A stretch of DNA of 64,000 nt from Brevundimonas sp. GTDB taxonomy: Bacteria > Pseudomonadota > Alphaproteobacteria > Caulobacterales > Caulobacteraceae. Position 1 is the first letter of the stretch. Each line of letters begins with the position of its first letter. Positions 44,239 through 56,743 of this stretch are shown piece after piece. Location: positions 62,001 through 126,000 of the forward strand of contig JAPZRF010000006.1 of assembly GCA_027531145.1 (NCBI GenBank). The letters run 5' to 3'. A program made the position numbers and the translations under genes. The notes beneath the pieces were generated by a model, which saw only the letters and a program-made list of their open reading frames with translations, was not told the origin of the DNA and searched no databases.

Positions 44239-44293
44239 CATCGGGGCTTGCCCACGACGGCGGCGCGGGCTATGTCCGCGCCTCCTGAAAGCG

Positions 44294-44368
44294 GGATGCG
44301 TAGCTCAGCGGGAGAGCACCTCGTTCACACCGAGGGGGTCACAGGTTCAATCCCTGTCGCATCCACCA
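44294..44368 (+). tRNA. tRNA-Val (anticodon CAC)
   Basis: GGATGCGTAGCTCAGCGGGAGAGCACCTCGTTCACACCGAGGGGGTCACAGGTTCAATCCCTGTCGCATCCACCA: acceptor, D, anticodon (loop TTCACAC) and T arms all pair; encoded CCA. Confidence 0.97.
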
Positions 44369-44431
44369 TTCCTCCCGACATCGTCAGCTGCCTCCCGCCG
44401 CCCTTTCAGCCGGCCCCGCCGCCCGACGGGA

Positions 44432-45091
44432 TCACCGCGCCGTGGAGGTCACGCGCACGGCCACCTCGTTGCGCCGCAGCGGCGGGACGGTCCAGGGTGG
44501 ATCGTAGAACCAGACGACCGGCTCGCCGTCGGCCGTCCACGTGCTCGCCTGCACCGCCGCAGCGAGCTCCGCCTGCCGGGCGGCTACCGCCTGCGTTCCG
44601 GCGAGGCCGGAGAAGCGCAGCACGGCATAGGACTCGGGCGGGAGTTCCACGAGGGAGACGGCGGGATCCCGAGGAATCGGCAGGGTCTCCATCGTCCAGG
44701 CACCGGGCATGAAGAACTGGATGACCCAGCGACCTGAGCCGGCGGGCCCTTGGGCGACCGGGGCGGTCATGGCGATGCTGCGGGAGCCCGCCGGGCCCCC
44801 GGGCTCGGGGGCCTGGGCGACAGGTGCCGTCATGGCGATGCTGCTGCGGCTCGTGTTGCCCCCGAAGATGTAGCCGGCCAGCCTCTGGAAGCCACGGTTG
44901 CGCGCCGCCTCGCTGGAGCCCGTGACCACAGTCTGGGCCGCGATCCTCGGGCCATAACGGCGGATCTCCACCTCGCCGATCCGCTCGACGACCGTATGGG
45001 CGGGCTCCTCCGTGCCCGAACGTACGCCAACCGTCGAGCACCCGGCGGTGAGAAGCGCCGCCGCGAGGCCGAGCAGGCTCGTCTTCTTCAT
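44432..45091 (-). CDS. SOUL-type heme-binding family lipoprotein
   Basis: MKKTSLLGLAAALLTAGCSTVG lipobox; VVERIGEVEIRRYGPRIAAQTVV; GGNTSRSSIAMTAPVAQ. Confidence 0.92.
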   Translation of the reverse strand: MKKTSLLGLAAALLTAGCSTVGVRSGTEEPAHTVVERIGEVEIRRYGPRIAAQTVVTGSSEAARNRGFQRLAGYIFGGNTSRSSIAMTAPVAQAPEPGGPAGSRSIAMTAPVAQGPAGSGRWVIQFFMPGAWTMETLPIPRDPAVSLVELPPESYAVLRFSGLAGTQAVAARQAELAAAVQASTWTADGEPVVWFYDPPWTVPPLRRNEVAVRVTSTAR

Positions 45092-45382
45092 GGTCGATCC
45101 TTCCGGAGGGCGGGCGCGCTTCCCGCATTCATCAGGGCCTACCATCCCGCGGCGGGAATGGCGCATCCCCGGACGTCGCCCTGGTGTCGCATTGACAAGG
45201 TGTCGCAGTCGGCGGTCCTGCCGCCGCCGGGTCACCGACTCCCCAAACCGCATCCAGTTTCCGGTCTTGAACGCTCATCGCCACACCCCTTCACCATCAC
45301 CGCTTGCAGAGACTTGACGACTACCCCTGATGATCCGCTTCGAGGGGCCTCACCTTATCTTCCGAGCAGTTCGGTGCCCACA

Positions 45383-45643
45383 TCACCGAAGGAGACTTCG
45401 CGGCACACTCTCGTCGAGATGCCACTGGCCGCTCGGCCGAGGTCGGCTGGCGGACAGGTTGCGCGCGACCTGCAACCCGATCTTCAGGACCCATCGGCGG
45501 ATCGTCTCGCACGAAACATCGAGGCCACGTTCTGCCGGGCGTTCCTCGGCGGCGCGACAGCATAGCTTGAGGCGCAGATAGAGCCCGGTGTGGCGGATCT
45601 CCCCGGGCGGGACCCGGTGTCGAGCGTGCGAGATGGGCGTCAC
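45383..45643 (-). pseudogene. IS6-family transposase N-terminal relic
   Basis: RHRVPPGEIRHTGLYLRLKLCCRAAEERPAERGLDVSCETIRRWVLKIGLQVARNLSASRPRPSGQWHLDE, then homology ends. Confidence 0.85.
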
Positions 45644-45781
45644 TCCAAACCCGATCGTCCCGGTCGGCAGCCGTCAGCGTTCCCGTGACGGAGCCGCCTT
45701 GTCCAGATCACGCTGGCGATCGACCGCGCCGTCGCGGCAGGAGCGCACTCCGGTCGGCGCTTGACCCGATCCGGCTGAAAC

Positions 45782-45796
45782 GGTAACGTTGTTACC
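45782..45796. promoter_or_regulatory. inverted repeat just upstream of the TetR start
   Basis: GGTAAC-GTT-GTTACC, 1 nt before ATG 45798. Confidence 0.65.
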
Positions 45797-45797
45797 A

Positions 45798-46460
45798 ATG
45801 AATGATGCCCACGATAGCTTTGACTACCAGAGCGCCCGCGCCGCAGGCGATGACGTGGTCCGCCGCGGGCTGCTGGATCTGGCGGTCCGGCTGCTGGCCG
45901 AGGACGGGCCGAAGGCACTGACGTTGCGTCACCTCGCGCAACGGGCCAATTGCTCCACCAAGGTCGTTTACACGCTGTTCGGCGGCAAGAACGGCCTGAG
46001 CGAGGGCCTGAAGGTGGAGGGCTTCGCGCGGCTGCGCTTTGCCGTCGAGCGCGAGCGACGTCGCCACCGTGACCCCGTGCAGGCACTGCTGCCGGTGATG
46101 CTCACCTACCGCAGCTTCGCGCTCGCGCGCCGGGCGCTTTTCGGTGTGATGTTCGGCAATGCGCTGCCCGAGTTCGTACCGACCGAGTACTCTCGGCAGC
46201 AGGCGCAGCTGGCCCTGGGCGCGGTGGAGTCGGCGGTGGTCGAGGCGCGCGCTGCACTCGGTACAGGGCCGGACGACGCCCGCGAGGCTGCCGTGCGCCT
46301 GTGGGCTGCGGTGCACGGGCCGGTCACCCTCGAAGTCGAGGGCATCATGCCCTTCGACTGCGACGGCGAGCGGCTGGCCCGCCTCGCGGTAACCGATATG
46401 CTGGCCAGCCTTCGACTCAATCAGCCTCGCGCTGCAATCTCGTTGGAGAAAACACCATGA
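45798..46460 (+). CDS. TetR family regulator
   Basis: RRGLLDLAVRLLAEDGPKALTLRHLAQRANCSTKVVYTLFGGKNGLSEGL. Confidence 0.9.
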   Translation: MNDAHDSFDYQSARAAGDDVVRRGLLDLAVRLLAEDGPKALTLRHLAQRANCSTKVVYTLFGGKNGLSEGLKVEGFARLRFAVERERRRHRDPVQALLPVMLTYRSFALARRALFGVMFGNALPEFVPTEYSRQQAQLALGAVESAVVEARAALGTGPDDAREAAVRLWAAVHGPVTLEVEGIMPFDCDGERLARLAVTDMLASLRLNQPRAAISLEKTP

Positions 46461-46915
46461 ATCACCTCGTCCGAATCCTGGCGGCGCTTTGCGTTGCCGC
46501 CCCACCATCGGCATGTATGGCCGCGCCGGCGCAGGCTCGTGATGAGGGTGCCGCCACCGTGCGGGTGGAGGTGGCCTCCTTTCGCAACGCCAGGGGCACC
46601 CTGAGCTGCCGCCTGTTCACCGACGCGGCCAGCTTCCCGGACGGCGAGGGCGTGCGCACCGTGCGCGCCCGAATCGATGGTGCCCAGGCCGCGTGCGTGT
46701 TCGAAGGTCTGACGCCCGGCACCTACGCCGTGGCGGCTTTGCATGACGAAAACGGCAACGGTCGGGTCGACAGGAATTTCGTGGGCATTCCGTCCGAGGG
46801 CTACGGCATCTCGAACAACCGCACCTATGCGACGGCGAGCCCCAAGTGGGACGAGTCGCGCTTCACCCTGGCAGCGCGCGAGGCGTTGGTGCTGCGCATC
46901 CGCCTTCGTTACTGA
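46457..46915 (+). CDS. DUF2141 domain-containing secreted protein
   Basis: RNARGTLSCRLFTDAASFPDGEG..CVFEGLTPGTYAVAALHDENGNGRVDRNFVGIPSEGYGISNN. Confidence 0.92.
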   Translation: MNHLVRILAALCVAAPPSACMAAPAQARDEGAATVRVEVASFRNARGTLSCRLFTDAASFPDGEGVRTVRARIDGAQAACVFEGLTPGTYAVAALHDENGNGRVDRNFVGIPSEGYGISNNRTYATASPKWDESRFTLAAREALVLRIRLRY

Positions 46916-47092
46916 GGGCACCGGTGATGCGGCAGCGACCCTCTCAACGCGCAACCCACTTTTCCTGACGGGTGCGGTAACAATGTGTTTAAACAGAAAC
47001 GCCGTTTCTCCGCTGGGCAGCAGGAGCGAGGCACCGCGCCGCGGCTGTTCGATTTCGCCGGCTGACAGGGGTCGCGCGACGGAGGGGACACC

Positions 47093-47722
47093 ATGAAGCT
47101 CGCCCTCTTCGGTGCCACCGGCCTCACGGGTGGACTCGTACTCTCGCAGGCGCTTGAGCAAGGCCATGAGGTGACGGCGCTGGTTCGTGACCCGAGCCGC
47201 GTGTCGCTGAGCCATCCGCGGCTCACCATTCTGGGCGGCAGCCCCACCGTGTCGGAAGATGTCGATCGCTGCGTCCGCAGCAGCGACGCGATTATTCACT
47301 GTCTCGGCATCGGCGGCAAAGGCGACGGCCGACCAACCACGCTCGTCTCGGACTCGGTGAAGGTGGTCCTCGCCGCGATGGAGAAGCACGGCTTGCCGCG
47401 CATTGTATGCATGTCGAACGTCGGGGCCGGCAGCAGCGGGACCTGGTTCGCGAAACGCATCGTACTCCCGCTCTTCGTCCGTTGGCTCCTGCCCATCATC
47501 GAGGACAAGGACCGCATGGAGGCCGCGCTCCGCGCAAGCTCCGTCGAGTGGGTCTCGGTGCGCTTGCCGAACATCGTCGAGGGCCCGGAGAGGGCGCTGC
47601 GGATCAGCAAGGATGGCCGAGGCATCGGCCTGTCGATCACCGCCGCATCTGCCGCTCACTTTCTTCTTCAGCAGGTCACCGCTTCCGATTGGGTCCGCTC
47701 TGCCCCGAGCATCAGCAACTGA
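47093..47722 (+). CDS. NAD(P)-binding (atypical SDR) protein
   Basis: MKLALFGATGLTGGLVLSQALEQGHEVTALVRDPSRV. Confidence 0.9.
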   Translation: MKLALFGATGLTGGLVLSQALEQGHEVTALVRDPSRVSLSHPRLTILGGSPTVSEDVDRCVRSSDAIIHCLGIGGKGDGRPTTLVSDSVKVVLAAMEKHGLPRIVCMSNVGAGSSGTWFAKRIVLPLFVRWLLPIIEDKDRMEAALRASSVEWVSVRLPNIVEGPERALRISKDGRGIGLSITAASAAHFLLQQVTASDWVRSAPSISN

Positions 47723-47731
47723 GGTCCAGAA

Positions 47732-48538
47732 ATGACGACACCTTCCCACCTCCGCCAGGTCTCGACCCGCGTCGGCTCCCTTGCGATCGCCGATGAAGGT
47801 GCGGGCACGCCGGTCGTGCTGTGGCCATCGCTGTTCAGCGACCACCGCTTGTACGCACTCGTGGCACCCCTGCTCGGCGAGGGGTGGCGCACAATCCGCA
47901 TCGACGGCCCTGGCTTCGGTCAAAGCGATGCGCCTCGCAGAGAGGTTCAGCCTGACGCTTACGCCGACGTCGTGGTCGACCTGCTCGACGCGCTCGGCCT
48001 CGAACGGGCCTTCATTGCCGGCTGCTCCTGGGGCGGCCAGATCGCCGCGCACCTTGGCGTAAAGGTGCCGGATCGCGTGCTAGGCGTGCTGATGATGAAC
48101 ACGCCGCTCGGCCCGAGCCTCGGCGGACACACGCTCCAAGTGTGGGGCACGCGCTGGTTAGGCGCGACCGGGTTCTGGGGCAACGGCGTCGCGAGCTCGA
48201 TGTTCTCTCCTGCGTCGCGGAAGGCCCATCCCGAGCGGGTCCGCGCCTTCGTGTCCGCGTTCAGGAGCTTCGACAAGGCCGCGGCCGCAGTGACTGTGCG
48301 TACCGTGCTGACACGGTCTGCGGGGCTCCGCGAGGTGCTGCCGCGCCTTACGGTGCCGACAACGATCCTGATGGGCGCCGAGGACCGGCTCTACCCCGTC
48401 GAGCACATGCGCCCGTTCGCGGCGCTCGCGCCGAACGCCACGCTCGAGGTCGTACCCTCGTGCGGACACCTGGCGCCGCTGGAGGCGCCCGAAGCGGTGG
48501 TCGCGGCGCTCAAGGGATTGGCGAGAGGCAGGGCATGA
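47732..48538 (+). CDS. alpha/beta fold hydrolase
   Basis: VVLWPSLFSDHRLYALVAPLLGEGWRTIRIDGPGFGQSD; FIAGCSWGGQIAAHLG. Confidence 0.92.
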   Translation: MTTPSHLRQVSTRVGSLAIADEGAGTPVVLWPSLFSDHRLYALVAPLLGEGWRTIRIDGPGFGQSDAPRREVQPDAYADVVVDLLDALGLERAFIAGCSWGGQIAAHLGVKVPDRVLGVLMMNTPLGPSLGGHTLQVWGTRWLGATGFWGNGVASSMFSPASRKAHPERVRAFVSAFRSFDKAAAAVTVRTVLTRSAGLREVLPRLTVPTTILMGAEDRLYPVEHMRPFAALAPNATLEVVPSCGHLAPLEAPEAVVAALKGLARGRA

Positions 48539-48579
48539 AGCCAACCGGCATAAGGAAGGTGGCGATCCTGAACGGCGAC

Positions 48580-48999
48580 CCCGCCGGGATAAACCCAATC
48601 GTCCGCGGTCGGCTCGGTCAAGGTGACGCGTTTGAGCGGTTCCATAGTGCCGGGGTTGAACATCGTCACGCTTGGCGGTCCTGCCGCTCCTACGCCGCCG
48701 AGCACGCCGTGTAGGGCAAAACCGCGCTCGTTGGACGAGAACGCCGCATTCCAGAGGCCAGACAGATCGCTGAGGTATTGGACGCTCGCTTCGCTTCTCG
48801 GCGCGGAGAAGGCTTCAAACTCGGGAAAGTAGCTCGTGCGGGCAGAATCGTGGTGCTCAAATGATCCGATGGTTGGGGACCAGTCGGCGTCCACCCGTCC
48901 TTCCTGATCAGGGACTGTTGCGCATCCGGCCAGTACTGGCGGAATCGCTGCGCAAAGATCTCGTCTTGTTATTCGCATGTCGCTAACCCGGGCGTTCAA
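48580..48999 (-). pseudogene. truncated secreted protein N-terminal fragment; ORF runs on antisense into the hydrolase gene
   Basis: MRITRRDLCAAIPPVLAGCATVPDQEG (Tat/lipobox-like) followed by coherent sequence to about VYPGGVAVQ, after which the ORF overlaps the convergent hydrolase. Confidence 0.4.
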
Positions 49000-49188
49000 T
49001 TATGAAGATATCGAAAGTCTCCAGCCGGTCGATTGATTCGAAACGGTCCGACACACGGAATGCGAATAAAAGTTCGTAATCCTGTCCCGTTCGAACCAAG
49101 AGCCGAAAGTCGGTCGCCAACCGCAATCTGACCGGGGAGTTCCGCCTGATCATCGCCGAGAGCAGCGACTTCTGCTGCTCTCGGCGCG

Positions 49189-51261
49189 TTAAAGCGCCTC
49201 CCGTTCCAGGACCTTGATGCGCATGGCGTGTTCTCCGGGCTCATCAAGGCTGCAAACCTCTATCCGGAACCGGCACTGCTGGCCATCGGGTGTGGTAACG
49301 GCAAGATCGTCGCTGTCGGCAGCGAGCGCCATGCGATGGCGCTGGTAGTGGACACCTTGGCCCCGCGGGGGCAGCCGCTCATTGATAAGGGCAGCGATCT
49401 CGCGCGCGCCCGTGATCTCGCCAAAGTGCGAGGCGGTAATCCAGACGCCGTCCGGATGGAACAGGCGCGCCGCCGCATCGCCATCGCGTCGGTCCACGGA
49501 ATCGAGAAAGCGCATCAGCAGCGAGCGCTTCGAGCGCCGGGGTGCATAGACGGTGTGCAGAAGCGCGTGGGCGACTTGGGAGTTTGGCGAACCGAGTTCG
49601 GTCTCATAGAGCTTCTGCACGTCCCGGTTTTCATGTGAACGTCGACGAGGAGCGGAGTTGTCGACGCGGTAAACCGCGGCGGCGCGTTTCTCCAGGACCT
49701 TAGGATCGAGGGACTTGGGCTCGCCACCACCGCCGAGACAGCCGCCGACGCACGCCATGACCTCGATTGCGACATAGTCTTCGCGCCACTCGTCGGTCTG
49801 CAGCATGCGCTGGGCAGTCGCGATGCCATTGCATACGGCCACCCGGCCCAGGCCCGGAACATCGGCCGTCTTCACGCCTTCACTGACGCCTCGAAGCGCC
49901 TGCCATACCAGTGGGAGCTCATCGCCGGCACCCGCCAGATGCGCGGCGGTACGCAGCATGGCCTCCATTACGCCACCCGAAGCCCCGAAAATCTGAGCCG
50001 CGCCTGTGCTCTGGCCCAGCGGACTGTCGAACACGCCATCCTCGGGCAGGGCACCGAAGGCGATGCCCCTGGAGCGGATCATCCGGGCCAGTTCCCGAGT
50101 GGTTAGCACATGGTCCACGTCGCCAGACAAACCGGGCCGTACGGCTTCATCCTTCTTGGCAGTGCAGGGCATGACGCTGACGACATAAGGCTCATCCTTG
50201 CCGTTCGCGAAATCCGGCCCAAGCGACCGGGCAAAGGAGCCACGCTTGGTTATTGCGCCCTGCATCTGTTGGGGTGACTTCGTCGTGCTGAGATGGCCCA
50301 GCAGGTCTGGCCGGTTGATCTCCACCCAGTTCACCCAGCCCGGGCAGCAGGAGGTGAACAGTGGCAAATTGGAATTCGCCTTCAGCCGCGCCAGCAGCTC
50401 GGAACCTTCTTCCATGATAGTGAGATCGGCGGCGAAGTTAGTGTCGAAAACATAATCAAACCCAAGCTTACGCAGGGCGTTGATGAGTCGCCCGGTGCTC
50501 ACAACGCCGGGTTCCAGCCCAAACTCCTCGCTGATGGCGATACGCGTAGCGGGCGCGACCTGGACCACAGACACGCGGCGGCGCGAAGCCAGTACGCGCA
50601 GGACGTCATGCCAGTGCGGGGCCTCGATGATGGCCCCAACCGGACAAACGAGAGTGCATTGACCACAGGAAATGCAGGCGGTTTCACTTAGGGGCTGATC
50701 AAAAGCGGTCACAACCAGGCGATCGAAACCGCGCTCGGCAAAGCCGATGACATGTTGCTGCTGGCCAGCCCCGCCGCAGGCCTCCACGCAAAGACCGCAC
50801 TGGATGCACTTCGAGGAGTCCCGCCAGATGCTTGGCGAGGTGTGGTCGACAGAGAGGTGTTCGGGATGTTCCGGCGAACCTGGCGGGACCTCCGGCCAGC
50901 GCTCGGCCCACTGGTTTTCCGCCACGAGGGTCTGCAACCGGCAATCACCATTCACTTCGCAGCGCATGCAATCATTCGGATGTCGCGCGAGCATCCATTC
51001 TGCATTGGTCCGGCGGAACTCTTGCAACGCGTCGGTGTCGGTCTCAACAACATCGCCACTCTTCGCAGGTGTGCAACAAGCGGGCTGAGGTCTGTCCTCA
51101 CTATCGACCTGCACCAGGCACATACGACAGACCGCGTGCGTTGGCAGGCCCGGATAGTGGCAAAGCGTCGGCACATGGCAACCCGCCGCCCGGATAGCCT
51201 CAAGCAGTGTGGCACCTTCGTCGACCTCGACCGGTCGTGCATTCACCATCAGCTTGAGCAT
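49189..51261 (-). CDS. [FeFe]-hydrogenase, M3-type (CpI-like) domain arrangement, with C-terminal SnoaL/NTF2-like extension
   Basis: [2Fe-2S] CHYPGLPTHAVCRMC; HPNDCMRCEVNGDC; CIQCGLCVEAC and CISCGQCTLVCP; H-cluster L1 TSCCPGW, L2 MPCTAKKDE, L3 EVMACVGGCLGGGGEP; small-subunit tail RRRSHENRDVQKLYETELG; last 114 aa not hydrogenase. Confidence 0.96.
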   Translation of the reverse strand: MLKLMVNARPVEVDEGATLLEAIRAAGCHVPTLCHYPGLPTHAVCRMCLVQVDSEDRPQPACCTPAKSGDVVETDTDALQEFRRTNAEWMLARHPNDCMRCEVNGDCRLQTLVAENQWAERWPEVPPGSPEHPEHLSVDHTSPSIWRDSSKCIQCGLCVEACGGAGQQQHVIGFAERGFDRLVVTAFDQPLSETACISCGQCTLVCPVGAIIEAPHWHDVLRVLASRRRVSVVQVAPATRIAISEEFGLEPGVVSTGRLINALRKLGFDYVFDTNFAADLTIMEEGSELLARLKANSNLPLFTSCCPGWVNWVEINRPDLLGHLSTTKSPQQMQGAITKRGSFARSLGPDFANGKDEPYVVSVMPCTAKKDEAVRPGLSGDVDHVLTTRELARMIRSRGIAFGALPEDGVFDSPLGQSTGAAQIFGASGGVMEAMLRTAAHLAGAGDELPLVWQALRGVSEGVKTADVPGLGRVAVCNGIATAQRMLQTDEWREDYVAIEVMACVGGCLGGGGEPKSLDPKVLEKRAAAVYRVDNSAPRRRSHENRDVQKLYETELGSPNSQVAHALLHTVYAPRRSKRSLLMRFLDSVDRRDGDAAARLFHPDGVWITASHFGEITGAREIAALINERLPPRGQGVHYQRHRMALAADSDDLAVTTPDGQQCRFRIEVCSLDEPGEHAMRIKVLEREAL

Positions 51262-51462
51262 ATCGTGCGATCCTCGACAGGCTGGAGCGATGCCAACCTA
51301 TCCAAACAGTCGTTGGTTGTCTTAGTCGCCAACAAAGAAATTCATCAATTTGCTATGCTGGACCACGACCGAACATTCATGGATCAACTCGCGGCCGCTT
51401 GCTTTGGTCTAGTGATTGCGACGCCAGGCTTGGCCCGGTTTAGTTCTGCGTGAGTGCATAGG

Positions 51463-51584
51463 TGAACCGCCCCGGGTTTCCCGGAGGCTCCAACTCCTGA
51501 GTCGGATGGAGCCCGATGAGCAAGACAACCAACAAGTCTGCGCCTGAGGTACGCGATCGCGCGGTGCGGACCATGGACCGAAGT
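51463..51584 (+). mobile_element. IS3-family left-end relic with start of orfA
   Basis: TGAACCGCCCCGGGTTTCCCGGAGGCTCCAACTCC terminal sequence, then MSKTTNKSAPEVRDRAVRTMDR (OrfA-like), truncated at the SDR 3' end. Confidence 0.78.
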
Positions 51585-51589
51585 CCTGG

Positions 51590-52474
51590 TCAAACTGCAC
51601 CGCGTCCAGCTTGGCCAGTTCCGGCCTGGGCTCCGGCACCGGGGCCTTGGCCCGCTGCGTCGAGTCGGTACTCCCTCGCCACGAGTCTCTCGAACAGTCG
51701 GCCCGGAAGAAGGTGCTTCACAGGGATCATCAGACGTTCGATCAGCGTGCCTCCCACATAGCGAAGGGCTGGCTTCCGCTCGGCAATGATCGCCTCGATC
51801 TTCCTCGCGATCATTAGTGGCGATGAGCCTTCGCGCTCATTCGCGACCGCTGCTGCATAGGCGTTCTCATGGAACTGGAAGTACGGTGACTTCGTATCGT
51901 GGGTCTGCTTCGTCGACGATCGAAGGGTCATGCTCGTGTTGATGTTGCCCGGCTCAAGGATGACGACCTTGATGCCGAACGGAAGCAGCTCAAGGCTCAG
52001 CGCCTCCGAGAGCCCTTCGAGAGCGAACTTTGAAGCACTGTAAACACCATCGAACGGAATCGCGATCTGGCCGCCGATGGATGATGTGTTGATGATGAGG
52101 CCCCGCCTCCGCTGGCGCATCGAGGGAAGGACAGCCTGAATCACCCGCAGCGGCCCAAGGGTGTTGATCTCGAACACCCGGCGGGCATCCTCGATCCTGG
52201 TCTCCTCCACCGGTGCGTTAAACCCGACGCCGGCATTGTTCACCAGAACATCGACGTGCCCGGCCCGGGCCATGATCGCTCCGACGGCCTGACGCACAGC
52301 TGCGTCGTCCCGAACGTCCATCGTCATGATGTGGTAGCCGTCAGGATGTTGCTGGAGGCCGTCAACCGGCTCCGGCACCGTGCCGAATACCTGCATCTGC
52401 CTGGACGCCAGATAGGCCGCCGTGGCACGTCCGATGCCAGAAGTGACGCCGGTGATGAGCACGACCGGCGACAT
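51590..52474 (-). CDS. SDR family oxidoreductase
   Basis: VVLITGVTSGIGRATAAYLASRQMQVFGTV; NNAGVGFNAPVEET; YSASKFALEGLSEAL. Confidence 0.93.
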   Translation of the reverse strand: MSPVVLITGVTSGIGRATAAYLASRQMQVFGTVPEPVDGLQQHPDGYHIMTMDVRDDAAVRQAVGAIMARAGHVDVLVNNAGVGFNAPVEETRIEDARRVFEINTLGPLRVIQAVLPSMRQRRRGLIINTSSIGGQIAIPFDGVYSASKFALEGLSEALSLELLPFGIKVVILEPGNINTSMTLRSSTKQTHDTKSPYFQFHENAYAAAVANEREGSSPLMIARKIEAIIAERKPALRYVGGTLIERLMIPVKHLLPGRLFERLVAREYRLDAAGQGPGAGAQAGTGQAGRGAV

Positions 52475-52974
52475 CAGGGCACCGCACTGGCGAAGTCATC
52501 GGCAGCGTCCCGAAGGTCCGCGACGAAACGATCGACGGCGTCCTGCAACGGGTAGCTGGCTCGCACGATGGGCCGCAGCAGGAAGTGTTTCACTACCAAC
52601 TCCTCATAGATGTAGATCGTCGTCGCAGCGTCACCTGCCGCTGTGAAGCGGACCAGCCAGCGGCCACAAAAGCCCCTGCCCCGGAAGTCAGCCTCGAACA
52701 GCGAATTGGACACCCGGCGGACCTGCTCGTACTCGACAGGCGGCGAGTCGTTCGCCAGCTCCCGCCAGCGCGTATCGGACAGGATCTCCACGCCCTTGAG
52801 GTCGCTTCGGAACGACTGGCGGCGGTCTACGGCGATGACGGCGAACAGCCGATCGATCGGTGCCGGGATGGTGGCTGTCGAGGTGGCGACGGCCACCCGA
52901 CGAGGCATGACTGCGCCAGCGATGCCGTAGGCGATGGCCGACACTGCCAAGATCGCGATGGTGCATGCGACCAT
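52474..52974 (-). CDS. SRPBCC-like membrane-anchored protein
   Basis: N-terminal TM helix; ATIPAPIDRLFAVIAVDRRQSFRSDLKGVEIL. Confidence 0.65.
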   Translation of the reverse strand: MVACTIAILAVSAIAYGIAGAVMPRRVAVATSTATIPAPIDRLFAVIAVDRRQSFRSDLKGVEILSDTRWRELANDSPPVEYEQVRRVSNSLFEADFRGRGFCGRWLVRFTAAGDAATTIYIYEELVVKHFLLRPIVRASYPLQDAVDRFVADLRDAADDFASAVP

Positions 52975-53400
52975 TATGAACTCCCGTGAGGTTTCGGGGA
53001 CGACGGGCGGCGGCTTGGTGCGCCGGGGAGGAGGTCATGGGGAGCGCCTGCCGATGTGCCGAGGGCGGGTGTGGGCTCCGCATGGGAACCGCCGCCCGGC
53101 CTCTCGTCCGGCTCTGAAGACGTCGGCTCGGGACACAGACTTCACGAAATCGCTGCCTTCAAGCAGAACTCCCTGCAAGGCGACATCCACCGGATGACCG
53201 TCGTCTTGGGCTTGAGGATGCCGCGTTGCCGGTCATGCCGCAAGGTTCCCGCACCACCGCGCCCGCCAACGTAGGCCGTCCTGCACCGACGGCGGCAACA
53301 ACAGCATGTTCAGCGCCAGGGTTGACGATTTCTCCTTCATCGAGACGCACCCCTCACTCGGTTTTCGCTGGAGCTCTTTATGATCGGTTCGTTCATGTCG

Positions 53401-53710
53401 CTACCGGACCAGGCGGCGGCGCAGGTCGGCGCTCATGCGCAGGGTGTCGACGAAGAGATTTCGCGGAATGGCGACCTCGGCCGGCTGAAGCGCGAGATGG
53501 CGCGCATGGCCGACGACCTTCGCGCCCGATCTTGACCAGCTTCTCCCTCAGCGTCGTCATCGACCAGTCCTTGGCCGAGTCCGGCTTCGCCAGCATGCGC
53601 AGGAAGTTGCCGGGATTGTCGTGGAGCGCGTGAAGCTGAGGCGAACCGCATGGCGAAGGAGCGGCACGGCAGCCGCTTCCATTTGATCGCGCCCTGGCCC
53701 TCCTTGATCC
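53401..53710 (-). pseudogene. IS1380-family transposase C-terminal relic, frameshifted
   Basis: Across frames: IKEGQGAIKWKRLPCRSFA / LHALHDNPGNFLRMLAKPDSAKDWSMTTLREKLVKIG / HARHLALQPAEVAIPRNLFVDTLRMSADLRRRLVR-stop. Confidence 0.82.
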
Positions 53711-53999
53711 GCTGCCCGGCGGGGCCGCCAGAGCGGGGATATGGGTGCGGGCCCAACGCACTCGGAAGCGAGGTTGAGGCAACATGGCGGTACCTCCCGC
53801 CCACATCCGGATGCCGGGCAGGCCCACCTGCCCAACCCCTCCCCCGTCGAAGGTAAAGGCTGTCCGATGCTGGCCCGGTACGGCGCATGCACCTTGTCCC
53901 GGCCCGGTGCCGCTACCAGCGGCGGTGTCGGGAACAGGCCAGAGCAAGATACCCCCGCGGTCCCCGCCAGCCGGTTCATGACGGCGGAGACACCCGAAC

Positions 54000-54024
54000 G
54001 CCGGGTCCCCTTCGGGGACCCGGC
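54000..54024 (-). terminator. strong GC hairpin downstream of the TonB-receptor fragment
   Basis: GCCGGGTCCCC-TTC-GGGGACCCGGC: perfect 11-bp stem; U-tract not obvious. Confidence 0.6.
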
Positions 54025-54064
54025 GCCTCGGGCGGCTGGCAGGACCGGCCAAAGCCGGTCCGGA

Positions 54065-54550
54065 TCAGAAGTAGAAGCGGACGGCCGCGCTGACGTTGCG
54101 GCCCGGCAGGACCCGCACCAGGGACAGGCCGCTGGCGGGCACGGTGGGCGCGCTGACATCGACCAGGGCCAGTTCGTCGAACAGGTTGTTGGCGTTCAAC
54201 GAAACCACCACCCGCTCGATCGGGCGCAGCTGCAGGAAGGCGTTGACGGTAGTGTAGGCGGGCATGATCAGGCCGTTGACGTCCTGACTGTAGCTCTCGG
54301 TGGTTCCGACGATGCTCGCGCCGACCGTGAACAGGTCGGTGTCATACTGCGGCAGCAGCGCGTAGATCAGATCTGCCTGGTGCCGCGGCGTATTGCCGAT
54401 CACGGCCGGATCACCCGCGTTGGTGATCTCGGCACTGGTCAAGGTGGCGCTGCCGGTCAGGCTGAACGGTCCGCGACGGACGCCACCCTCGAACTCCGCG
54501 CCGATAGCCCTGTAACCCTGGCGGACCAGATCAACACTGGTTTGCCCATT
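54065..54550 (-). pseudogene. TonB-dependent receptor C-terminal fragment
   Basis: NGQTSVDLVRQGYRAIGAEFEGGVRRGPFSLTGSATLTSAEITNAGDPAV...AYTTVNAFLQLRPIERVVVSLNANNLFDELALVD...PGRNVSAAVRFYF (C-terminal aromatic); plug and most of the barrel are missing. Confidence 0.82.
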
Positions 54551-54928
54551 GGCGTCAGACCGTCCTCGCCCGCTGCCACCCCTACGGCGACTGGATCGAC
54601 TGGCTGGGCCCGATCGCGACCTGAGCGGACGCGGGAGGGTGTGAGTCGCTCACTGCCCGGTCCTGTCCCGAGACCGCCCGTGACCACCCACCGGATGAAT
54701 GAAGCCGGACTGGGCGATGATCCTCACAGCCATCCGCCCCGTCGCCGCTGGATTGTCGCGGGAACTGAGGCGGACGCCCTCAGGCTTGCAGCTCCGGAGG
54801 CCGCGCCCGAGACAGCCGGCACAATTGATCAACTGTTGATCGGCAGACAGGAAGAGGCGTTCGCCCGCGCCGGGTTCGACACCTCGCCCGACCATCACGC
54901 TGGCGAAGGCGTCCAGGACCCGGGCGCT

Positions 54929-56743
54929 TCAGCGGCCGCGCAGCCCGAGCGCGGCGGCGACCGCTGACCACGGCAGATACTTGAAGTTCTGGGTCTCGTC
55001 GGGCAGCACGTTACGCCCGTCCTGAACCACGACCGCCCCCGCCTCGAAGCCCGGCCCGAGGTTGGCGCTCGATACGTCGAGGCCATCGGTCTCCGACGCA
55101 CCGTCAATGCCGAGCTCGGCGTTGGCCACGACGGCGAAGGACCCGAGGTAGCGATTGTCGCCGATCCGCTCGAACACGGCATAGCTGTCGTTGCCCTGAC
55201 TGGACACCACCAGATAGCCCTCGCCGCCGCCCAAATCGTAGAGGGCGATGCCTTCGACATCGTCCTTCAGCGCAGGATTCCCGGCGACCATGGCCACGGG
55301 CGTGCGCGCCTCGCCGGCGTCCGGCTCGGCGCCGAAGCGCCAGACGCCCACGTCCTCCTCGCCCACATAGAGCCAGCCATGGACGTCATCAGCGAGGCAC
55401 CCCTCAGGCTGGGTCGCGAGGGCGAAGTCGCGCACGCGCTCGGCGCGCACCCGGTCCCCTGTCTCGATCAGGCGCCACTGGCGCATCCGGCCGTCGGAGT
55501 CGTTGATGAAGGCGTAGGTCGAGCCGTCTCGTGGCGAGCGGTACAGGCAGAGGCCATAGGGGTCGTCGAGCCCCGTCGGCTGCAGCCCGGCCGCGATGTC
55601 GCTCAACTGCCGCGTCGCCGGATCGAGACGGTAGAGACCTAGGCTGCGGTCGGTCCGGTTGCTGGCGGCCACGAGACTGATCTCCTGGCCCGCCAGTCTG
55701 AAGCCGGAACGGAGGTCGACGTTGTTGACGCGCCCCACCGCAAGGTATTGCAGCTGGCGGCCGGTCATGTCGTACACCGCGAGGCCGCCCCGCTTGTCGG
55801 TGCCGACGACGAGGCTGGCGGCCGGATCGGTCGGGTGGACCCAGATGGCCGGATCATCGGCGGCATCGCCGAAGCTGGGCATGGGCGTGGTCTCGACCAT
55901 GGCCGGCAGGGCGGCGAAGGGCGACGGCGGCGCAGCCAGGGCGACAGGATCGCCGGCCTCAACCCCGAGGGCCGCCGCTATTGCGGTCATTGTCAGGCCG
56001 CGCCAGACATCGGCGGCGTCGTCCTGAACCAGAAGTCGCCCGTCGACGACGGCAAGGGAGCCCGTCTCCTCGATGGCAGCCCCCTGCCCGGCAAGGAATA
56101 CCCGACCGACGAAGGCATGGTCGTGGCGACGGTCGTAGACGGTCAGCGCGCCGACCGAGGAGTCCGAGGCGATCAGCCACGGACCGTGCAGGGCCACGCC
56201 CTTGGTCTCGCCGTTCAGCTGACCGAGGCGCGGCGCGTCAATGACTTCAGGGGCAGCATCGGCTTCGGCATCGGCATTGAAGCGCCAGACGCCCACCGCC
56301 TCCTCGGCCACGTAGAGGTCCCCCGTGGCGCTGTCGGCGACGCACTGGGTTGCCGTGGTCGGAACATGCAGCCGGCGCACCGGCGCGACCGTCAGCCCCC
56401 CGCGCCCCCGTCCCACCAGGAACTGGGCGATCTCGCCGCCATCCCCCACCACAAAGGCGTAGGGCAGACCATCACGCGCCCCCGCGATCAGACAAACGCC
56501 CTCGCCGGCGAAACTCAGCGGGCGACGCGCCTCAGCACCGCCTGAGGCCACGACCAGGGCATTGGCGGCTCTGTCGAGCCGGGCGATGACCTCGACCACC
56601 GCACCGGCAACGCGGGCAACAATGCGAGCCGCCGGCGGCTCCTCGACGGCCATTGTCGGCAGCGGTGCCGGCACCGCCTCCTGGGCCTGGAGCGCGCCTG
56701 CTGCGGCCCAGGCCGCCGTCGCCATAAGAATCGCACGCATCAC
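54929..56743 (-). CDS. beta-propeller phytase, two-domain
   Basis: DAADDPAIWVHPTDPAASLVVGTDKRGGLAVYDMTGRQLQYLAVGRVNNVDLR; DDVHGWLYVGEEDVGVWRF; N-terminal half repeats a degenerate propeller (GDLYVAEEAVGVWRF). Confidence 0.94.
   Translation of the reverse strand: MMRAILMATAAWAAAGALQAQEAVPAPLPTMAVEEPPAARIVARVAGAVVEVIARLDRAANALVVASGGAEARRPLSFAGEGVCLIAGARDGLPYAFVVGDGGEIAQFLVGRGRGGLTVAPVRRLHVPTTATQCVADSATGDLYVAEEAVGVWRFNADAEADAAPEVIDAPRLGQLNGETKGVALHGPWLIASDSSVGALTVYDRRHDHAFVGRVFLAGQGAAIEETGSLAVVDGRLLVQDDAADVWRGLTMTAIAAALGVEAGDPVALAAPPSPFAALPAMVETTPMPSFGDAADDPAIWVHPTDPAASLVVGTDKRGGLAVYDMTGRQLQYLAVGRVNNVDLRSGFRLAGQEISLVAASNRTDRSLGLYRLDPATRQLSDIAAGLQPTGLDDPYGLCLYRSPRDGSTYAFINDSDGRMRQWRLIETGDRVRAERVRDFALATQPEGCLADDVHGWLYVGEEDVGVWRFGAEPDAGEARTPVAMVAGNPALKDDVEGIALYDLGGGEGYLVVSSQGNDSYAVFERIGDNRYLGSFAVVANAELGIDGASETDGLDVSSANLGPGFEAGAVVVQDGRNVLPDETQNFKYLPWSAVAAALGLRGR

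Follow-up and report, generated by a model that had tools for sequence, protein, structure and literature searches.

The hydA-snoaL gene of a Brevundimonas species belongs to a horizontally spread, stand-alone family of [FeFe]-hydrogenase-like proteins whose carrier genomes lack the maturases HydE, HydF, and HydG. The gene lies in a 64,000-nucleotide stretch of DNA that is called the window below. The family had gone unremarked in open-access full text, where we found no description of a fusion of HydA to SnoaL, of a stand-alone mobile form, or of a maturase-less bacterial HydA family. Because [FeFe]-hydrogenase activity is held to require HydEFG strictly and to occur mainly in anaerobes, a conserved, mobile, single gene with a full active site and no maturase in aerobic or microaerophilic Proteobacteria points to either a new mode of H-cluster assembly or a new reaction or cofactor in the hydrogenase pocket. 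We give roughly even chances to the explanation that this monophyletic single-gene family, derived from group-A [FeFe]-hydrogenases, works without HydE, HydF, and HydG and reduces or senses something other than H2. HydA-SnoaL is most likely a redox enzyme or sensor that uses housekeeping Fe-S clusters.

The open reading frame is intact, with an ATG start and no internal stop codons. Pfam models recover the full clostridial-type domain order (Table 1), with matches to Fer2_4 (9e-16), NADH-G_4Fe-4S_3 (3e-11), two Fer4 domains, Fe_hyd_lg_C (1e-78), and Fe_hyd_SSU (3e-19). The window protein passes the NCBIfam model TIGR02512 ("[FeFe] hydrogenase, group A") with 428.6 bits against a cut-off of 405.95, and all 51 rows of the family alignment match this model with E < 1e-100. 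It misses the cut-off of NF040763 for group A6 (644 versus 765 bits). Judged by sequence, the window protein is a group A [FeFe]-hydrogenase. In an AF2 model of the whole protein, confidence is good for most of the H-domain (pLDDT mostly 65-95, with the L3 loop at about 45-60) and for the SnoaL domain but poor in the F-domain, owing to a shallow alignment. The top Foldseek matches for this model are Thermoanaerobacter kivui HydA1 and the Clostridium pasteurianum enzyme CpI.

Table 1. Features of the hydA-snoaL gene and of the nearby edge of the variable region (window coordinates).
Feature	Position	Strand	Remarks
hydA-snoaL gene	49189..51261	-	Stand-alone [FeFe]-hydrogenase-like protein, 690 aa, SnoaL at C-terminus; 51 full-length homologues
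[2Fe-2S] domain, Fer2_4	51034..51258	-	Residues 2-76; C34, C45, C48, C62 invariant (>=98%)
His-ligated [4Fe-4S] domain, NADH-G_4Fe-4S_3	50917..51015	-	Residues 83-115; H94, C98, C101, C107 invariant (>=98%)
Ferredoxin-type [4Fe-4S] sites (two)	50620..50820	-	Residues 148-214; C152, C155, C158, C162, C196, C199, C202, C206 invariant (>=98%)
H-domain, Fe_hyd_lg_C	49726..50571	-	Residues 231-512
H-cluster motif L1, TSCCPGW	50335..50355	-	52/52 invariant
H-cluster motif L2, MPCTAKKDE	50146..50172	-	M364, P365, C366, K369 each 52/52 invariant
H-cluster motif L3, EVMACVGGCLGGGGEP	49717..49764	-	M502, C504, C508
Fe_hyd_SSU segment	49537..49701	-	Residues 521-575 (Pfam)
C-terminal SnoaL/NTF2-like domain	49192..49527	-	Residues ~579-690, about 112 residues
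tRNA-Val(CAC)	44294..44368	+	Edge of variable region, directly after genus-conserved efp-IMPase block

At its C-terminus the protein carries a SnoaL domain, which an earlier sequence-only reading of this DNA had overlooked, as it had the existence of a conserved family. The domain passes the Pfam cut-offs for SnoaL_4 (2.8e-7) and SnoaL_2 (1.7e-6) and is present in all 52 family sequences, whereas the characterized HydA proteins compared here lack it. When modeled alone (AF2 pLDDT 91), it adopts a fold like that of ketosteroid isomerase (KSI), and Foldseek returns KSI-fold matches with E values of about 3e-5 to 2e-4 and TM scores of 0.4-0.67. Catalysis of the KSI type was considered and rejected, as the catalytic Tyr16 and Asp40 (P. 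putida numbering) face Phe and Thr/Ser-type residues in what is a weak alignment.

The active site is preserved throughout the family. Motifs L1 to L3 and their four Cys ligands are invariant in the 52 sequences, and each of the 20 Fe-S ligands is conserved in at least 98% of them. Residues were mapped onto CpI with a numbering taken from established knowledge. On this mapping, C305 and C306 of L1 correspond to the CpI proton relay C299 and ligand C300, and M364, P365, C366, and K369 of L2 to CpI M353, P354, C355, and K358. Residues of the [2Fe] pocket and of the proton path (CpI C299, E279, E282, R286, and S319) are retained in 51 or 52 of 52 sequences. All 16 pocket and proton-path positions examined reach at least 98% conservation, compared with 131 of 262 other H-domain positions (50%; p = 2.5e-5). 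The sequence-only reading had reported H-cluster motifs, F-cluster ligands, and a CpI-like proton path, and each of these extends from the window protein to the family.

Near this conserved core, the family has fixed substitutions of its own: E514 (GGGEP), where 14 of 14 reference HydA proteins have Gln (GGGQP), as well as T239 and D371. Further family-fixed changes are C477, W89, W122, and W217. The position of CpI Q325 is Gln in 51 of 52 HydA-SnoaL sequences. Among ordinary HydA relatives, this residue is altered in six of seven from genomes without HydG (five His, one Ile) and is Gln in four of four from genomes with HydG, a small and phylogenetically clustered sample.

A pattern scan of 84,980 species genomes located family members at 54 loci (L010-L063), of which some end at a contig edge and one is a broken copy. 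Because the scan words were exact 8-residue matches to the window protein, more distant members may be missing and the family count is a lower bound. The set of 52 sequences comprises 50 full-length proteins from the scan, one found by six-frame search (genome G232), and the window protein, to which the other 51 are 66-76% identical. Carriers represent at least 50 species of Alpha-, Beta-, Gamma-, and Zetaproteobacteria that are mostly oxygen-using, including many cultured aerobes. They include Hyphomonas, Thioclava, Jannaschia, Lutimaribacter, Alloyangia/Salipiger, Phenylobacterium, Janthinobacterium, Pseudoduganella, Paraburkholderia, Aquabacterium, Nitrosomonas, Gallionella, Mariprofundus, Thiomicrorhabdus, and Pleionea. 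With few exceptions, carriers have only one PF02906 gene.

Placed in a phylogeny alongside 14 ordinary HydA proteins, HydA-SnoaL forms a single clade (support 100/100); its stem measures 2.32 changes per site, and its crown branches are short. A six-frame search of 385 Alphaproteobacteria recovered two members only (that of the window genome and one at 74% identity) and no sequence between 74% and 46% identity. The gene is under purifying selection, with pairwise whole-gene dN/dS values of 0.05-0.24 and weaker constraint on the SnoaL part than on the rest. No member was found in the viral contigs searched or among the 72,556 plasmids of PLSDB, which yielded only ordinary HydA at <60% identity. 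Broken second copies were observed in Aquabacterium sp. CECT 9606 (L063:10001-11365) and Jannaschia seohaensis (L123:6007-7187), and both genomes also have an intact copy at another site.

None of the three maturases scores above its cut-off in any carrier. HydE and HydG are each missing from 49 carrier genomes and from both the window genome and G232 (0/51), and HydF is likewise found in 0/51. The window genome (2.85 Mb, 100% complete, 0.49% contaminated) has none of the three. Among 17 control Alphaproteobacteria with ordinary HydA, HydE occurs in 12 and HydG in nine (Fisher p = 8.5e-10 and 4.9e-7, respectively, with relatedness uncorrected). Genome incompleteness is a poor explanation for the result in carriers because the control genomes are mostly fragmented as well. 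HypCDEF was considered and rejected as another source of CO and CN ligands, since HypD, which marks the pathway to Fe(CN)2CO in [NiFe] enzymes, occurs in only 8/51 carriers.

A review reports all three maturases to be essential (PMC6212873), and the gene complement of the window genome does not provide what an active [FeFe]-hydrogenase requires. The sequence-only reading had called the protein an orphan with no maturases in the window; this description holds for the whole genome and extends to 50 other carrier genomes. Its further suggestion of catalytic competence finds no support in that form: although the pocket is intact, no route to the [2Fe] subcluster is known that bypasses HydE, HydF, and HydG. 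It was right to ask what the real function might be.

Some genomes with ordinary HydA also lack HydE and HydG. Five Alphaproteobacteria with genomes of 1.1-1.6 Mb (loci L110, L111, L112, L115, and L113 in genomes G250, G139, G087, G215, and G138, respectively) carry an ordinary HydA and neither HydE nor HydG. A NuoF-like gene adjoins HydA in four of the five, and those four form one clade. The CpI Q325 position is His at L110, L111, L112, and L115 and Ile at L113. A Tropicimonas genome, in which HydE, HydF, and HydG were not found, carries both HydA-SnoaL and a second HydA of ordinary layout that adjoins a NADH_4Fe-4S/GltD-like pyridine-nucleotide oxidoreductase (L122:4331-8237).

HydA-SnoaL has no dedicated partners either. 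A NuoF/HydB-type motif is absent from the window, consistent with the earlier claim that HydB and HydC partners are missing there, and from the fetched flanks of every family locus, whereas nine of the 11 HydA loci used as references carry it, and one of the two without it begins at a contig edge. The adjacent NuoF-like HydB and HydC typical of group A6 HydABC are accordingly missing at HydA-SnoaL loci. A search for operon partners by clustering and by Pfam revealed no recurring neighbor family, and neither ISC/SUF-type genes nor any candidate maturation gene travels with hydA-snoaL. At 28 of 45 loci there is no same-strand neighbor within 100 bp, so these genes look monocistronic. The sequence-only reading had called the setting beside SDRs, an alpha/beta hydrolase, and TetR unusual. 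These genes are uninformative about function, since neighbors vary in almost every homologous locus; the SDR, SRPBCC-like, hydrolase, NmrA-like, and TetR genes seen in the window probably lie there by chance. Upstream sites for FNR, CRP, Fur, sigma-54, and LexA were also sought; nothing emerged beyond a slight excess of FNR-like boxes with at most one mismatch (3 versus about 0.2 expected from mononucleotide shuffles), which was set aside because the positions are unrelated.

Within Brevundimonas, hydA-snoaL appears to be a recent arrival. Each of the 40 congeners sampled has some match to the query DNA, mostly in the efp-IMPase block, and none has a match to the hydrogenase gene among the DNA matches listed; a protein search of two congeners likewise found no HydA-SnoaL. 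Colinearity with congeners stops just past IMPase, at tRNA-Val(CAC), and the GC content of hydA-snoaL is 62.9% compared with 67.7% for the window. These results support the horizontal acquisition suggested by the sequence-only reading. Contamination of the contig from an anaerobe, a contingency also raised there, is unlikely and was rejected, as the efp-IMPase block on the same contig is genus-typical (79-88% identity to congeners) and many genomes of isolates carry hydA-snoaL too. The segment from about 44240 to 54900, up to a phytase gene, varies between congeners as a genomic island would. Within it, a short ORF (45383-45643) looks, on visual inspection alone, like the beginning of an IS6-type transposase and has no Pfam match, and a truncated TonB-receptor barrel (54065-54442) lies beside the phytase-family gene (54929-56743), whose 604-aa product contains two stretches of the phytase family (PF02333, 4e-106).

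How might such a protein work? If HydA-SnoaL acts on something other than H2, its four F-clusters and the [4Fe-4S]H cubane would be loaded by the housekeeping ISC/SUF systems. Because there is no dedicated partner subunit, electrons would be supplied by a common soluble carrier and pass through the series of F-clusters into the pocket of the H-domain. Given that no known route leads to a [2Fe] subcluster, the pocket would be vacant or would hold an ordinary Fe-S cluster or small molecule. Such a pocket and the intact proton path could jointly support proton-coupled reduction of a non-H2 target, or redox or gas sensing. The SnoaL domain may be an oligomerization or ligand-binding module. This explanation is favored by the count of HydE, HydF, and HydG (0/51) and of HypD (8/51), by the lack of a NuoF/HydB motif or conserved neighbor, by the monocistronic look of 28 of 45 loci, by purifying selection and the invariant Fe-S ligands, by retention of SnoaL throughout the family, and by family-specific substitutions near the active site. 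Nar1, a eukaryotic homologue of HydA, is a published precedent for function without [2Fe]H (PMC12621388). Two observations run against this explanation. The pocket and proton path are more conserved than the remaining H-domain, as expected if a real H-cluster is present, and the Gln at the Q325 position is kept, whereas ordinary HydA proteins from genomes without HydG have mostly changed it.

Conservation of the pocket and proton path lends some weight to a possible, if rather doubtful, alternative: that HydA-SnoaL is a genuine [FeFe]-hydrogenase whose H-cluster is made by a HydEFG-independent route and that takes up, releases, or senses H2 in aerobes and microaerophiles. The pocket and proton relay have persisted despite 2.3 changes per site along the stem, no part of the F-cluster chain is missing, and the group-A model is passed by the window protein and strongly matched by all 51 rows. 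By the same tentative account, this aerobe-borne family would fill the pocket with an H-cluster, a new diiron site, or some other new cofactor without HydE, HydF, and HydG and spread as a single self-sufficient gene. Against this, Nar1 probably also retains some H-cluster second-shell residues without [2Fe]H. Moreover, HydE, HydF, and HydG are missing throughout, HypD is rare, and no candidate maturation gene accompanies hydA-snoaL. A maturase-free hydrogenase would also contradict the published need for all three proteins (PMC6212873).

It is unlikely that the protein is an Fe-S cluster carrier or assembly factor, and so a bacterial functional analogue of Nar1/CIAO3. A HydA fold without maturases, encoded by a stand-alone gene, has its precedent in Nar1 (PMC12621388), but the complete electron chain and proton path would be superfluous for a carrier, the gene is patchy and dispensable (with no listed DNA match in the 40 congeners), and ISC/SUF-type neighbors do not recur. 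There is even less to recommend the idea that maturases were missed because they reside on unassembled plasmids or have diverged too far for the models. Many carriers are indeed incomplete MAGs, and the genomes reached through loci come with no completeness figure, but the result of 0/51 for all three includes about 20 cultured isolates and the complete window genome, and the family itself is absent from the PLSDB plasmids. Modest divergence would not hide HydG because HydG proteins of related genomes score 460-930 bits. Least probable of all is a decaying relic of a hydrogenase stripped of its operon, which the truncated genes around it in the window and the decayed second copies in Aquabacterium and Jannaschia might suggest, but which the intact state and conserved ligands of 52/52 full-length members and the dN/dS values contradict.

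The family also has a practical consequence: annotation pipelines may label carrier genomes as H2-producing, since the window protein passes the group-A cut-off. HydEFG-independent H-cluster assembly is the more exciting alternative, and an H-cluster built in a new way would be of direct use in biotechnology. Cultured carriers such as Thioclava, Jannaschia, Janthinobacterium, Thiomicrorhabdus, Salipiger, and Hyphomonas make the question testable now.

Among known systems, the closest are the group A6 HydA subunits of HydABC from T. kivui (HydA1, 8a6t), A. woodii (HydA1, 7q4v), and T. maritima (HydA, 7p5h), which share the order [2Fe-2S], His-ligated [4Fe-4S], two [4Fe-4S], H-domain, and SSU. 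T. kivui HydA1 is 42% identical to the window protein in the Foldseek alignment, and the catalytic residues are common to both. Unlike these subunits, HydA-SnoaL lacks HydB, HydC, and maturases, has an added SnoaL domain and GGGEP in place of GGGQP, falls below the A6 cut-off, and forms a separate clade. CpI, a ferredoxin hydrogenase, shares with HydA-SnoaL the monomeric architecture, the F-domain and H-domain, and the proton-path residues, but its host is an anaerobe, it is matured by HydEFG, and it carries no SnoaL domain. The SnoaL/KSI-like members of the NTF2 superfamily share Pfam family and fold with the C-terminal domain, which here is fused to a hydrogenase.

Nar1/CIAO3 (IOP1) of the eukaryotic CIA pathway is a HydA homologue in hosts that lack maturases and hence has no [2Fe]H; a [2Fe-2S] cluster has been proposed to occupy its pocket (PMC12621388). 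It has two conserved [4Fe-4S] sites only and a CIA-targeting C-terminus (PMC12621388), an architecture from which the window protein departs. Compared with Nar1 as described in that publication, HydA-SnoaL keeps the [2Fe-2S] and His-ligated [4Fe-4S] domains and the proton-relay Cys and ends in a SnoaL domain.
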